This document shows positions 4,522 through 36,927 of a DNA stretch of 36,927 nt, in pieces (the first letter of the stretch is position 1; each line of letters opens with the position of its first letter). The stretch is from a virus. The stretch is taken from the IMG/VR virus record IMGVR_UViG_3300037160_000014, positions 1 to 36,927 of that record, one strand, 5' to 3'. The notes under the pieces were generated by a model. It was not told the origin of the DNA. It did not search any database and saw only the letters and a list, made by a program, of their open reading frames with translations. A program made the translations under genes and the position numbers.

Positions 4522-4779
4522 ATGAAACTATCACACGTTAAAGTAGGGGTCAGGGTAAGGTCGCTTGTTGGTTTTTACCAGCTGCCTAAAGGCAGCGTTG
4601 GTGTGATCGACGAAGATTATGGCTCCGGTGTGATGGTCAAATGGGATGGCATAAACATTCGTGATGGCTTTGACAAAGAGACAGAGCTTGATTTTTTAGA
4701 AGCAATTAACCCGCCGCTCGACTGGCGCAAGAAGCACGGCCTGATAGTCGAAGAGGCAGAATACGAGGAGATAGCGTAA
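4522..4779 (+). CDS. small SH3-like (KOW-like) hypothetical protein
   Basis: An 85-aa protein from the ATG at 4522; a GTG-initiated extension to 4438 would run through the GC-rich hairpin and is unlikely. The sequence KVGVRVRSLVGFYQLPKGSV followed by GVIDEDYGSGVMVKWDG is the alternating pattern of a small SH3/KOW-type beta barrel. The C-terminus is acidic. No named family. It overlaps the next gene as TAATG. Confidence 0.55.
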   Translation: MKLSHVKVGVRVRSLVGFYQLPKGSVGVIDEDYGSGVMVKWDGINIRDGFDKETELDFLEAINPPLDWRKKHGLIVEEAEYEEIA

Positions 4780-5006
4780 TGGACTTAGCGATGGCGAAGC
4801 TTTGCGGCGATAAGATAGTGGAAGTAAGAGATACTGAGGGTAAGATCGTAGTTATGGGTCGGGTTACTGGCCTTGTCGATGAACCTGCGCTTGTTTTGAA
4901 GTATCTGAATGGACAGGTTGGTGAGCATGTAATAAGTCAGTGCGAGGTCATACCGTTAGCTGATGATGTTGTTGACTATCTAACTAAGAGAAAGGGCATA
5001 CAGTAA
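4779..5006 (+). CDS. small hypothetical beta-rich protein
   Basis: A 75-aa protein whose ATG is inside the upstream stop (TAATG) and whose own stop overlaps the next start in the same way. It is rich in beta-prone stretches (DKIVEVRDTEGKIVVMGRVT, VISQCEVIPLADDVVDYL). No family recognised. The tight coupling on both sides supports that it is translated. Confidence 0.55.
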   Translation: MDLAMAKLCGDKIVEVRDTEGKIVVMGRVTGLVDEPALVLKYLNGQVGEHVISQCEVIPLADDVVDYLTKRKGIQ

Positions 5007-5491
5007 TGTTGCTGCACGAAATACCAAGTGAGATCGACAAGCTTTTAGACGAGTACAACTCAGACGGCATTAGCGACGACAGGCGCGAACAGATAGAGTT
5101 CGAGCTTGAAGCGTTGGAGCACATGAAGGGCGGTAAGCTGGACTGGCTTGCAGATAAGCGAGCCTCAGAGCTTAATGATGCCGCCACAATCAAAGCAGAG
5201 GAGGATCGGCTGTACGACCGACGCAAGGCCAAAGAGAATAATGCCGACAGGCTGAAACGCTTCACGGACTTTATGCTTGGCGGCGAGAATCTAAGGACTC
5301 CGATGCACACGTATTTTTATCGAGCTACACAGTCCGCTAATATACTGGCAGAAGATTTGATACCAGAAGAATTTATCACTATCATAACCGAGCGCAAGAT
5401 AGACCGCGCCGGAATATTAAAACGGTTGAAAGCCGGGGAAGAAATTTCAGGCGCAGAGCTTCATGTTAATACAAGCTTGATTATAAAGTAA
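5006..5491 (+). CDS. Siphovirus Gp157-like protein
   Basis: A 161-aa protein with the features of the Gp157 family (PF05565): IEFELEALEHMKGGKLDWLA near residue 30, a charged helix with KAEEDRLYDRRKAKENNADR, then a C-terminal beta part ending ILKRLKAGEEISGAELHV. Family members lie in early and recombination operons of siphoviruses; the Streptococcus thermophilus member was linked to phage resistance, but the mechanism is unclear. Length fits the family. TAATG overlaps on both sides. Confidence 0.8.
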   Translation: MLLHEIPSEIDKLLDEYNSDGISDDRREQIEFELEALEHMKGGKLDWLADKRASELNDAATIKAEEDRLYDRRKAKENNADRLKRFTDFMLGGENLRTPMHTYFYRATQSANILAEDLIPEEFITIITERKIDRAGILKRLKAGEEISGAELHVNTSLIIK

Positions 5492-5814
5492 TGGAACCAA
5501 CTCTATTCGACGCAGTCGCCGCTAACGATGCTAAAGAGCTTGGTAAAAGCTCTGCTGCTGGCGTGAGTTATCGCATGGGTATATTAGCCGAAGCGCAGGA
5601 GATCGCTCGTGACCTTGGTCGGCGTATGGGACACTGTTGCGCCGATCAGGTTTATTTCATGCTCGATGCTCGCGGTCGAGACATAAAATTATTAGGCAAT
5701 GGCGCTGGCAGTATATTCGCTGGCAAAGAATGGGAGTTCTCTGGCGAATGGATTAAGAGCACTCGAATAACAAATCATGGTCGCATGATTAGAGTCTGGA
5801 AGTTTGTAGGTTAG
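5491..5814 (+). CDS. small hypothetical phage protein
   Basis: A 107-aa protein, ATG overlapping the Gp157-like stop (TAATGG). An Ala/Arg-rich helix (ILAEAQEIARDLGRRMGHCC) leads into a short segment ending HGRMIRVWKFVG, a C-terminal pattern common in small proteins of early phage operons. It may bind DNA, but I see no decisive motif. It is the last gene before the tRNA-like locus. Confidence 0.55.
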   Translation: MEPTLFDAVAANDAKELGKSSAAGVSYRMGILAEAQEIARDLGRRMGHCCADQVYFMLDARGRDIKLLGNGAGSIFAGKEWEFSGEWIKSTRITNHGRMIRVWKFVG

Positions 5815-5821
5815 TATCGTT

Positions 5822-5958
5822 GGGACAGTAAGCTCACAGTGGGGACGAGCGCACCGCGTCGCATGAAGGGGAGGTTGCCTGGCGCAATAATTCCAATCCT
5901 TCTCGTTTAGCGAATGATAAACCGGTGAGGGCCATAGGTTCAAATCCTATCTGTTCCA
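5822..5958 (+). tRNA. tRNA-like cloverleaf with a 66-nt structured anticodon loop
   Basis: A complete cloverleaf can be drawn. Acceptor GGGACAG (5822-5828) pairs with CTGTTCC (5951-5957, one G-U). TAA joins to D stem GCTC/GAGC (5832-5835/5847-5850) with an 11-nt loop containing GGGG. G5851 precedes anticodon stem CACCG/CGGTG (5852-5856/5923-5927). The variable segment is AGGGCC, and the T arm is ATAGG-TTCAAAT-CCTAT (5934-5950), with a consensus T loop and discriminator A5958. CCA is not encoded. Instead of 7 nt, the anticodon loop has 66 nt (5857-5922) that fold into two hairpins: 5865-5902 (GAAGG/CCTTC, GGA/TCC, GTTGC/GCAAT) and 5905-5922 (GTTTA/TAAAC), the latter abutting the anticodon stem. 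No anticodon can be assigned. It could be a tRNA with a small intron, a remodelled tRNA-like RNA, or a decayed gene. The next ATG lies 4 nt downstream. Confidence 0.7.
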
Positions 5959-5961
5959 CAA

Positions 5962-6258
5962 ATGGCAAAGAAGCAAATAGAAGTAGCAAGCGAGGGCATT
6001 CATCACATGGACGATGCTCAGTTGCAATGGGTCGAATTCAAGAATGAATGGAGTGATTGGCTGGCAGAGCGGCGGCTGAAAAAGAACCCAGTCACCGATG
6101 CCGCCGCCAAGAGACAGCTTGTTTTCTTGCGCTCGCAACCAGACCCTATCGCTGTTATTAGTCAGTCGATCATGTGCGGGTACACGGGTTTATTTCCTAC
6201 TAAAAATAAAGGACAAGCACTTGCAGGATTTAGAAGTGAGCATCCAGAGTCTTTCTGA
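5962..6258 (+). CDS. small replication-module protein (C-terminal domain of phage replication proteins)
   Basis: A 98-aa protein. The segment EFKNEWSDWLAERRLKKNPV, then TDAAAKRQLVFLRSQ and AVISQSIMCGYTGLFP, matches the small domain usually found at the C-terminus of phage replication-initiation proteins (pattern W..W...r...k...t..a...ql..l......a...i..si..gw.GlfP). Here it stands alone directly before a DnaC-like gene, so it probably helps load the helicase. The start is 4 nt after the tRNA-like RNA; its 3' end overlaps the next gene by 38 nt. Confidence 0.65.
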   Translation: MAKKQIEVASEGIHHMDDAQLQWVEFKNEWSDWLAERRLKKNPVTDAAAKRQLVFLRSQPDPIAVISQSIMCGYTGLFPTKNKGQALAGFRSEHPESF

Positions 6259-23456: not shown

Positions 23457-23555
23457 TAAGGGTTCCGGTGGGTTGGTAGCAATATCAGCCCACTGGTTTA
23501 TTAGAACTAAGGGTTCCGGTGGGTTGGTAGCAATATCAGCCCACTGGTTTATTAG
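23457..23555 (+). repeat. two identical 48-bp hairpin repeats before the tape-measure gene
   Basis: A perfect 48-bp direct repeat, 23457-23504 and 23508-23555, period 51 bp. Each copy can form a stem CCGGTGGGTT/AGCCCACTGG (10 bp with two wobble pairs) followed by TTTATTAG. The second ends 5 nt before the tape-measure ATG (23561). They could be tandem weak terminators, a translational control element, or protein-binding sites. Confidence 0.9.
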
Positions 23556-23560
23556 GACAC

Positions 23561-26500
23561 ATGGACGGGAAGCCACTAATTGTATCGCTAACCCTTAAGC
23601 TCAAAGAAGCTGTTGCGGAAGCGGCTCGCGCCAAAGATACCCTAAAAAGCGAGTTTAATCAGATGCAGACCGAGGGATCGGCGGCTGCTAAAAAGATTGA
23701 GGATGTATTCGAGCAAAATCTTAAAAAAGTTGGTGGCGCAGCGAAAGAACTCGAACATGCTTTGGGTGGAGTTGGCAAAGAGCATGAGGCTAATACTTCT
23801 TGGATCGCCAAGATAAAAGAGAAGCTTGAACAATTAGAGGGTCAGGCGAAGCATACCGGCTCGGCTGTTCACGAAGCGGGAGAAGGCGGGCATGGTAGTG
23901 AAATGGGCTTAGGTGCTATCGCTGGCATAGCTGGTGTGGGATTTGAGTTAAAAGAATTGTTCAATGTCGGTCGGGAGACGATTGAGCGCGAAGAGGAAAT
24001 TACGATAGGTCTCAGAACTACCGGAATGAGCGCGGAGCAGGCCGCTAAGTCTCTCGATAAAGTAACCCAAGCTTCCGGTGAGACGGCGAATGCGCTCGCG
24101 TTAAATCACGCTGAGGTAGAGACTGCTACTGCCGCTTATCTTAAGATGGGTGGCACGATGGATAATCTGCCTCAGAAGCAGGAAGCTATTGCCGCGCTTG
24201 CCCAGCGCGCAGGTATCGGTATGGATCAGGCCGCCAAACTGTATGCTAAATCGGTCGATGATGAGACGGGTACGCTTTCGAGATTAGGTATCACTTTCGA
24301 AAAGGGCGCGACTCAGGCCGAACGACAGATAGCTATTAATAAAGCCTTGTCCGGCACTATCGACGGTATGAAAGAGGCCGCTAACGGCCCGATAGGAAGC
24401 TTCAATCGTTTCAAAGACAGCGTATCTGTTCTTGAAGAGAAAATGGGAAGCTTTTTATTTAAGACGCTTGCTCCGGTATTTGAATTCCTGAACAAGAATC
24501 AAAAAACGGTTCTTACTGTCGTTGAAGTATTAGGAGCGATGGCAATAGCCGTTGGAACCGTTAGCGCAGCAACCGCCGCGTGGAATGCCGTGCTTGCTCT
24601 CAATCCGATCACATGGATAGCTCTTGCGGTTGGCGGATTAATAGCCGGATTGATATTGCTATATCAGAATGTCAAACCTGTGCATGATGCGTTTCAACAA
24701 ATTTGGGATGTAATCAAAGCTACGGGAACTGCGATCTGGGCATTCGTTCAGAATTATGTCGGCTCGCTTATCGAGGCATTCAAGGGTGTAGGTAAAGTAA
24801 TAGATTCGCTGATTCATCTTGACTTCAAAGGAATGGTCGAGGGAGCGAAGCAAGTTGGCGAATCGGTCGTGAATGCTTACGCTGGTTCAGCTAAGAAAGC
24901 AGGTGCGGCATTTGGTGACTCGATGGCAAGTAGTCTTAGTGGGCATCTTTACGATGCTGCGCGGGAGCAGGTTAAGAAAGCTCTCGATAGTATAAATAAG
25001 CAATTAGCCGAACAGGGACTAAGCCCGGAGCGTAAAGCGGCACTTGAAAAATCAAGATTAGAATGGGTTGAATATGGTAAGAAAGTTGGCGCGGACGTAG
25101 GTGACGCGATGGATTCCGGTTTGAATAAACCGAAAGAAGAGAAGGCTCCTGCTTCCGGTAGCGCGGCGGGCGATTCTCGCGCAGTAAAATTGCAGGCTCG
25201 ATATTCAACAGAAAAAGATGCCCTCGACAAGGAGTACCAGCTAAAGTCTGCTAACGCTGAACGTGAGGCTATTTTAGCTGGCGCGTCTCAGGAGGACATT
25301 AAGAATTTGACTCTTGGAATCGAGCAGGAGAAGAATAGCAAGCTTAATGAGATTGCTCAAAAATATCATGCCGAATCTCTTACCATCAAAAAAGGCGATG
25401 CGGCTGAAATCAAGAAGGTGCAAACTGATCTTGCTGTCGCGGAAGCACAGACGGCTCTTGCTAATGCAAAGAATTTGTCAGAGACAGATAAACTGGCTCT
25501 TGAAGAACGGCTTAAAAACGCCGAAGAGCTTGCTGCAAACGCTAAAACCGAAGAGGAGCGGGCCGCTAAGGTTCGCGCCGACAATCATGCCGAATTCGAA
25601 AAAAGTATTAGTGAACTAAAGGCTCACATCGAAGCCGAGTCGCACTTGCAAGAACTACGCGATAATGCAATTAGTGACTCGATGGAACGTGAGCTTGCTC
25701 TTGCTCAGGATAAATCGGCTAAAGAATTAGCGTTACTCGACGAAGAGCACGCCGCTAAGAAAATATCCGACGAAGAATATAATCTTACTAAGACAAGCCT
25801 CGAACAGCAGGCCAACGATGCGCGGCTGAAAATCTTATCCGACCACCTGCAAAAGGAGAATGTACTTTATGCCGGAGCGATGGCCGGCGTGAAAACCATA
25901 TTCTCTGACTTGACAAAGCAGGTCGAGGGTATGCTTGACAGCTTATTCTCTGCTAATCAGGCCGGGACTCAGAATGATATAGCTCTTGCGAATCTCGAAA
26001 AGGAGAAGAAGATTCAAGCGATGAGCGATCAGGTGCGTACCAATAAAATGACGTACCAGGAATTTACCCTGCAAAAGACAAAGCTCGATGAAGATGCTAC
26101 TAAAAAAGAGCAGGCCAATCAATTTTCGGTTCAGAAATTAGCGGTTAGTGTCGGTCAGAGTATTACGAAATCTATCGTTGGTGAACTTGCAAAGCGAGCT
26201 GAGGCATGGGTTGCGGATCAACTAATGAGATTAGCCTTGCAGGTCGTTTATGGAGCCACATCTACGGCCACCGGAGCGGCCCTTGCGGCTACGACTGCGG
26301 CGATGTGGGCTGGCCCTGCGGCCCTTACGTCCATTGCTACGCTTGGCGCGGCTGATGTCGCTGCTACGGCTGGAATCATTGCTACGACGGCAGCCGCACA
26401 GGTGGCGGGTGCACCCAAGAAAATGGGTGGCGCGGCTGATTCAGGAAGCGATGATGATATAGGTGGCGTGTATCACAAAAACGAATTTATCGTAAGTGCG

Positions 26501-36152: not shown

Positions 36153-36927
36153 ACTCAACAGCTGCAATAAACTATCCCGGCCCGAATCTCGCTGCTATTA
36201 ATATGAGTCAGGGTATTTCCGGTATTCCCGGGCCGTCAGGCGGCGGCATTGACTATGCCTACTTGACCGATACGGCTAATAGTGACCCCGGAACTGGGAA
36301 CTTAAAATTCGACAGCACGACTTTCTCCGCGATAACGAGCTTACGAATCAGCAACACGGATTCCGCCGCTACGAATGTTGCATCGTTAATTTCGACATGG
36401 GGACTCTCGACCTCACCCAACAGGTCAACGATTCTCATGTTGAGTGCGCCGAATGACTTGATATTTCAGGTGACGGGCGCAGTCACGAATAACGGGACAT
36501 GGAGTTCCATGCCTGTTACTTACGTCGGAACGTCAGGTACTTTCAATAATGGCGATACGGTTCAGGTGTCGTTTGCCAACACTGGCAATCTTGGAGCAAC
36601 AGGGCTGACCGGAGCGACGGGCGCAACCGGAACAAATGGCGCGACAGGCGCACAAGGAAACACAGGTACTACGGGAGCCACAGGAGCACAGGGAGCCGTT
36701 GGCGCAACAGGTCAGATTGGTTTAGAGGGTGAAGTTGGCCCAGCGGGGCCGCAAGGCGCGACTGGTAACACTGGCGCGACCGGAGCGCAAGGCAGTCAAG
36801 GTAATACGGGTGCAACAGGAGCACAGGGCAGTCAGGGCGCAAGCGGAGCACAAGGTACGGTTGGCCCGACCGGACAAATTGGCTTGGAGGGTGACACCGG
36901 AATTCAAGGGCCAACTGGAGCACAGGG
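36149..36927 (+). CDS. collagen-like tail fibre (3' end beyond window)
   Basis: The frame opened by ATG 36149 has no stop before the window ends, giving at least 259 residues. Residues 1-148 form a beta-rich N-terminal domain ([38 protein letters not shown]), and from G149 the sequence is an unbroken Gly-X-Y repeat rich in GAT, GAQ and GNT triplets, with a longer motif GQIGLEG occurring twice. Such collagen-like stalks form trimers in phage fibres. The gene probably ends in a C-terminal receptor-binding or trimerisation domain outside the window. Confidence 0.75.

Follow-up and report, generated by a model that had tools for sequence, protein, structure and literature searches.

A tRNA-derived element with an enlarged anticodon loop in a 36.9 kb phage record

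What does a locus encode that has every arm of a tRNA and carries 66 nt in place of the 7-nt anticodon loop? We addressed this question for a 137-nt element in a 36.9 kb virus record (IMGVR_UViG_3300037160_000014), the whole stretch of which was analyzed and is referred to here as the window (positions 1 to 36,927). As the initial annotation had described, four arms of 7+4+5+5 bp, a T loop reading TTCAAAT, G26, and A73 are all present. Inspection of the sequence and our scripts found 21 of 21 arm pairs formed, the sole G-U among them being at position 3:70, and the 66 nt that replace the anticodon loop could likewise be read from the sequence (Table 1). Genes are closely packed in this region, and the element takes up all of the space from the stop codon at 5814 to the ATG at 5962. 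This ATG begins an O-like replication initiation ORF and lies 3 nt (CAA) past the discriminator. The true start codon of the O-like gene is uncertain, as homology starts only at about residue 23-30 and an ATG at 6007 is preceded by GAGG.

In the left part of the window are genes for replication and recombination (NinB-like, Gp157/Gam-like, O-like, and DnaC-like), and an endolysin-like gene is present in the phage. Shine-Dalgarno motifs are weak or missing ahead of most ORF starts in the window. The terminase is at most ~30% identical to any match found, and searches of viral and genome collections by neighboring proteins, terminase, DNA pattern, and alignment returned no usable close relatives; the matches at two loci (L002 and L003) were without the tRNA-like element. 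The insert-bearing element is known from one sequence, and the phage that carries it appears to be a small orphan phage. Repeats were also seen in the window: about 20 tandem 15-bp units near the left end (66-499), translated as DSTATDSTEP-like repeats; three 42-bp tandem units (8301-8455) in an ORF weakly similar to a DNA methyltransferase family; two near-identical 51-bp tandem copies (23457-23558) directly ahead of a 1087-aa ORF at 23561; and degenerate repeats at the right end of the record (36606-36927).

Table 1. Coordinates of the element, its parts, its neighboring genes, and the insert-bearing tRNA loci of other phages.
Feature	Position	Strand	Remarks
tRNA-derived element	5822-5958	+	137 nt
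Upstream ORF, 107 aa, no assigned function	5491-5814	+	Stop codon 7 nt ahead of the element
Acceptor stem, 5' strand GGGACAG	5822-5828	+	G3 pairs with U70; pairing probability 0.97-1.0
Linker TAA	5829-5831	+	3 nt (canonical U8-A9, 2); from sequence
D arm, GCTC / 11-nt loop ACAGTGGGGAC / GAGC	5832-5850	+	Beats 400/400 control stretches in tRNA D-arm similarity
G26-equivalent	5851	+	From sequence
Anticodon stem, 5' strand CACCG	5852-5856	+	Becomes CACCGC on removal of the 57-nt insert
66-nt loop between the strands of the 5-bp anticodon stem	5857-5922	+	From sequence
Candidate 7-nt anticodon loop GTCGCAT	5858-5864	+	Anticodon CGC (Ala), U33, A37; deletion scan
Candidate 57-nt insert AAGGGG...GATAAAC	5866-5922	+	Deletion scan
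5-bp hairpin GTTTA-GCGAATGA-TAAAC	5905-5922	+	Abuts the 3' strand of the anticodon stem
Anticodon stem, 3' strand CGGTG	5923-5927	+	
Variable loop AGGGCC	5928-5933	+	6 nt
T arm, ATAGG-TTCAAAT-CCTAT	5934-5950	+	Matches annotated phage tRNA-Pro and tRNA-Arg genes
Acceptor, 3' strand CTGTTCC, and discriminator A73	5951-5958	+	From sequence
Downstream ORF, 98 aa, replication initiation O-like	5962-6258	+	phrog_678, E 1.7e-8
Giant-phage insert family	L040:6181-6305, 4978-5104, 4532-4648; L064		Phage BF
Giant-phage insert family, further loci	L043, L044, L045, L046, L047, L048; L053, L054, L055, L056-L063; L065, L066		
Aeromonas phage tRNA	L041:898-997, L049:304-405, L050:304-377		PX29 and Ah1 with insert; phiAS5 without

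The initial annotation judged a chance origin unlikely, and several comparisons with controls bear this out. Among 400 random stretches drawn from the window, none resembled real tRNA D arms as closely as the linker and D-arm stretch did. When the T arm was held fixed, the full arm arrangement arose in only 43 of 20,000 shuffles. Split alignment of the element to real tRNAs scored 64, compared to 16.5-31.5 for shuffled elements. For the 3' half, comprising the T arm and acceptor strand, matches were found among the tRNA genes of many phages (24/24 nt in a cyanophage tRNA-Arg). We also searched with R1, a covariance model of insert-bearing phage tRNAs that describes a tRNA body with an insert between the D and T arms. 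The only match in the 36.9 kb was the element (18.1 bits, E 0.0093), and its E value was 0.0015 when the model was run without a filter over 6 kb. The R1 signal is nevertheless modest, since a prefiltered genome search with this model did not report the element. No other tRNA-like gene was detected in the window by ARAGORN or R1, and there is no tRNA cluster. We conclude that the element is tRNA-derived. A chance assembly of tRNA-like pieces would agree with the free fold of the element, which is ordinary relative to shuffles (z -0.39), but the shuffle and D-arm tests, the split alignment, and the R1 match make such an assembly extremely improbable.

The element is not a standard tRNA. Neither ARAGORN at standard thresholds, also with introns allowed, nor Rfam at gathering thresholds called a tRNA. 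The Rfam tRNA model RF00005 gave just 17.2 bits, below threshold and with a differing alignment; the insert-bearing giant-phage and Aeromonas phage tRNAs that this model reported (see below) scored 46-54 bits. Departures from the tRNA standard include a 3-nt linker, an 11-nt D loop, a 6-nt variable loop, and no encoded CCA; taking the anticodon stem as 5 bp, there is no U33 and the loop is 66 nt, not 7. An ordinary tRNA is disfavored because these spacings are off-standard. Rfam matches to a CRISPR repeat and a plastid 3' UTR were below threshold and were taken as chance, and no terminator was detected.

The initial annotation had also drawn the 66-nt loop as two hairpins stacked on the anticodon stem, and this specific fold was not borne out. 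The minimum free energy structure of the element (-41.3) is not the cloverleaf; in the pairing probabilities, the acceptor stem (~1.0) and the T arm (~0.9) stand well above the D and anticodon stems (~0.13). The two-hairpin structure reached -36.8, and when the cloverleaf was enforced, a single long extended arm was better (-39.0). Equally good folding of the 66-nt loop was seen in 39 of 300 shuffles. The two-hairpin fold is just one among several near-equal folds. Entirely within the expanded loop is a reading frame of 15 codons, MKGRLPGAIIPILLV-stop (5863-5910).

G3:U70 together with A73 is a known alanine identity, and the acceptor of the element carries both. We scanned for deletions between the D and T arms that would leave an all-Watson-Crick stem, a 7-nt loop, U33, a purine at position 37, and a variable loop of 4-8 nt. 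Exactly one was found, the deletion of 5866-5922 (57 nt), which yields CACCGC-GTCGCAT-GCGGTG with the alanine anticodon CGC. Among loop shuffles, 571 of 1500 gave some candidate deletion and 77 of 1500 (~5%) gave an alanine anticodon, and we regard the apparent agreement of acceptor and anticodon on alanine as suggestive, not significant. The deletion product has a 6-bp anticodon stem or a 9-nt loop. No single deletion, that of 5866-5922 included, restored a tRNA that ARAGORN would call (0/1638), and 13 of 20 insert-shuffled controls yielded some tRNA calls in the same test. Descent from tRNA-Ile(GAU), with the pattern GAGCGCACC...TGATAA...GGTGAGG, was considered and rejected since other isotypes align equally well in the split alignment, which singles out no isotype for the element. 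A pattern search for interrupted tRNA-Ile genes returned only intact tRNA-Ile genes or chance matches. At another locus (L023:7647-7799), a tRNA-Ile(GAU) gene (7686-7761) lies between the halves GAGGTGG... and ...TCACCTCCA and looks nested inside another tRNA.

Inserts in the anticodon arm were found in tRNAs of other phages. Several large phages (Serratia phage BF, Erwinia SNUABM phages, Cronobacter GAP32, Pectobacterium CBB, Xanthomonas XbC2, Erwinia Kaldavass, and Vibrio D479) carry ~45-50 nt between positions 28 and 29 of a tRNA, which is Asn-GUU in D479 and Lys(UUU) in the others, and removal of the insert leaves a perfect anticodon arm. The stems of these tRNAs covary, with double changes in 17 of 28 pairs and a covariation score of 0.566 vs. 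0.18 when shuffled. The insert has a purine-rich start, followed by a covarying hairpin and then a (U)ACAGCA or ACGGCA motif. Genes for other tRNAs, tRNA-Asn, -Glu, and -Tyr among them, carry the same insert, with at least four insert-bearing tRNAs in phage BF. Members of the family are 38-90 nt long and sit on the 5' side of the anticodon arm, and in most of them, removal restores a standard arm. No Rfam family of its own matched the insert, and no description was found in a literature search that covered a minority of subscription journals; the family is apparently unreported. In Pectobacterium phage CBB there are genes for two RNA ligases, one of which may act in tRNA repair (PMC5259590). 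When we searched with R2, a covariance model of the giant-phage insert (hairpin plus ACAGCA motif), there was no match in the element (background ~7 bits) or in the window record, and membership of the element in this family was rejected. The giant-phage inserts are structured and compact; they are unrelated to the insert in the window but occupy almost the same position in the tRNA. A different tRNA carries a 26-28 nt hairpin insert in its anticodon arm in Aeromonas phages PX29 and Ah1; in phage phiAS5 this tRNA lacks the insert.

Our favored explanation, which we consider plausible and hold tentatively, is that the element is a phage tRNA of alanine type with an insert, released by processing of an early transcript and unable to decode unless the insert is removed. 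Its tRNA descent, the 21 intact arm pairs, the exactly filled gap between genes, the alanine anticodon of the one suitable deletion product, and the existence of phage tRNAs with anticodon-arm inserts in giant phages and Aeromonas phages support this explanation. Against it weigh the single sequence, the off-standard linker, D loop, and variable loop, the lack of any ARAGORN call after a deletion, a cloverleaf that is not the minimum-energy fold, the low RF00005 score, the miss in the prefiltered R1 search, and the failure to recognize an RNA ligase or tRNA-processing gene among the window ORFs scanned. The tRNA descent and intact arms of the element are established, and we infer transcription, processing, alanylation, and insert removal as follows. 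The element would be transcribed along with its neighboring genes. RNase P and RNase Z recognize a tRNA by its acceptor/T-arm half, which is intact here, and these enzymes may cut the element from the transcript at about 5822 and 5958, which would leave a replication-gene mRNA starting CAA-AUG. The freed RNA could be CCA-tailed and possibly alanylated. As it stands, the element is unable to read codons because of the ~60 extra bases at its anticodon loop, and it would act as tRNA-Ala(CGC) only on loss of 5866-5922. That the 57 nt are a non-group-I intron in a phage tRNA-Ala(CGC), and a case of a wider, undescribed phage habit of compact, removable anticodon-arm inserts, is rather unlikely. Three options had been given in the initial annotation, namely a small intron, an anticodon arm that is expanded, and a tRNA mimic; a tRNA body with an anticodon-arm insert is supported. 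The G3:U70 alanine mark, the alanine-restoring deletion, and the insert-bearing giant-phage tRNAs were absent from that annotation.

We ranked the insert-bearing alanine-type tRNA ahead of a pseudogene, a decoy, and pure transcript punctuation. A decaying pseudogene, in which a phage tRNA took an anticodon-loop insertion and then drifted with no present function, would account for the off-standard linker, D loop, and variable loop, the missing U33, the lack of an ARAGORN or Rfam call, and an insert that folds no better than shuffles. However, decay is expected to cost pairs, and an old pseudogene is disfavored because pairing is intact in every arm (21/21); the gap between the two genes is also exactly filled, though phage gene runs are usually compact. 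We consider a pseudogene somewhat unlikely. A mimic or decoy whose body binds a host factor that handles or attacks tRNAs, and whose expanded loop blocks decoding or resists anticodon nucleases, would fit an intact elbow and acceptor next to a disrupted anticodon loop. In line with such a role, it has been proposed that changes in the anticodon loop let phage tRNAs escape host tRNases (PMC10264068). A decoy is nonetheless distinctly unlikely for a single tRNA-like gene outside any cluster.

It is also improbable that the element acts as transcript punctuation only, with a tRNA-like RNase P/RNase Z site at which a short-leader O-like/DnaC mRNA is split from the mRNA upstream and the insert being irrelevant. 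The acceptor and T arm are indeed the most stable parts, the start codon closely follows the discriminator, and Shine-Dalgarno motifs are weak or missing before most starts, but the D and anticodon stems would be needless, and the O-like start on which this account depends is itself uncertain. The intact T arm and acceptor 3' strand, the best conserved part of the element, could instead be an attP-type tRNA 3' end carried for integration, with a 5' half that arose by chance; we find this highly improbable, as the 5' half is itself tRNA-like and no integrase was recognized among the window ORFs scanned, nor was any RNA ligase or tRNA-processing gene. A minimal tmRNA-like RNA, with an alanine acceptor and the short internal frame replacing the anticodon, is barely credible. 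G3:U70, A73, and an ORF with its stop inside the loop speak for it; against it, there was no Rfam match, ARAGORN in tmRNA mode was empty on a 181-nt stretch even when relaxed, the D stem is kept, no pseudoknots were seen, and a 15-codon ORF easily arises by chance.

To our knowledge, bacteria and phages have no protein-based tRNA splicing, their tRNA introns being large self-splicing ribozymes, and we know of no bacterial splicing machinery for compact anticodon-arm inserts of this kind. Archaeal-type splicing is unlikely, since the endolysin-like gene points to a bacterial host. When the element was read by eye, no archaeal-type BHB with its 3-nt/4-bp/3-nt arrangement was seen; a TCGC/GCGA pairing would give 2- and 9-nt bulges. 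An anticodon-arm insert of 57-66 nt would demand either a new removal route or a non-decoding role, possibly transcript cutting or service as a decoy against anticodon nucleases. Since inserts of similar size are conserved in several giant-phage tRNAs, the question is testable in cultured phages.

The initial annotation had set the element apart from group I introns and tmRNA, and as far as tested this holds. The known bacterial group I tRNA introns are roughly 200 nt or more. The insert in the window shares their location in the anticodon region, but at 66 nt or less it is far shorter, and a group I catalytic core (P3-P8), for which the element is too short, had no Rfam match within it. Like tmRNA, the element has an alanine-type acceptor and no anticodon loop; unlike tmRNA, it keeps the D stem and shows no pseudoknots, and ARAGORN in tmRNA mode found no match in the window with the ends of the element. 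Compared to tRNA-Ala, it has G3:U70, A73, GAGCGC after the D loop, and CGC in a possible 7-nt loop, but also 57 extra nt, additional nucleotides in the linker and variable loop, and a 6-bp anticodon stem after the deletion. The PX29 and Ah1 tRNA resembles the element in having an anticodon arm extended by extra paired sequence, although there the insert is shorter, forms a single strong hairpin, and has a known uninterrupted relative in phiAS5. In the giant-phage tRNA-Lys(UUU)-type genes, the insert interrupts the anticodon stem on its 5' strand (28/29) in an otherwise perfect tRNA, which the element is not, and has a conserved hairpin and (U)ACAGCA, neither of which the window insert has. The element and these genes alike combine a phage tRNA body in which every arm is present with a compact anticodon-arm insert too short for group I.
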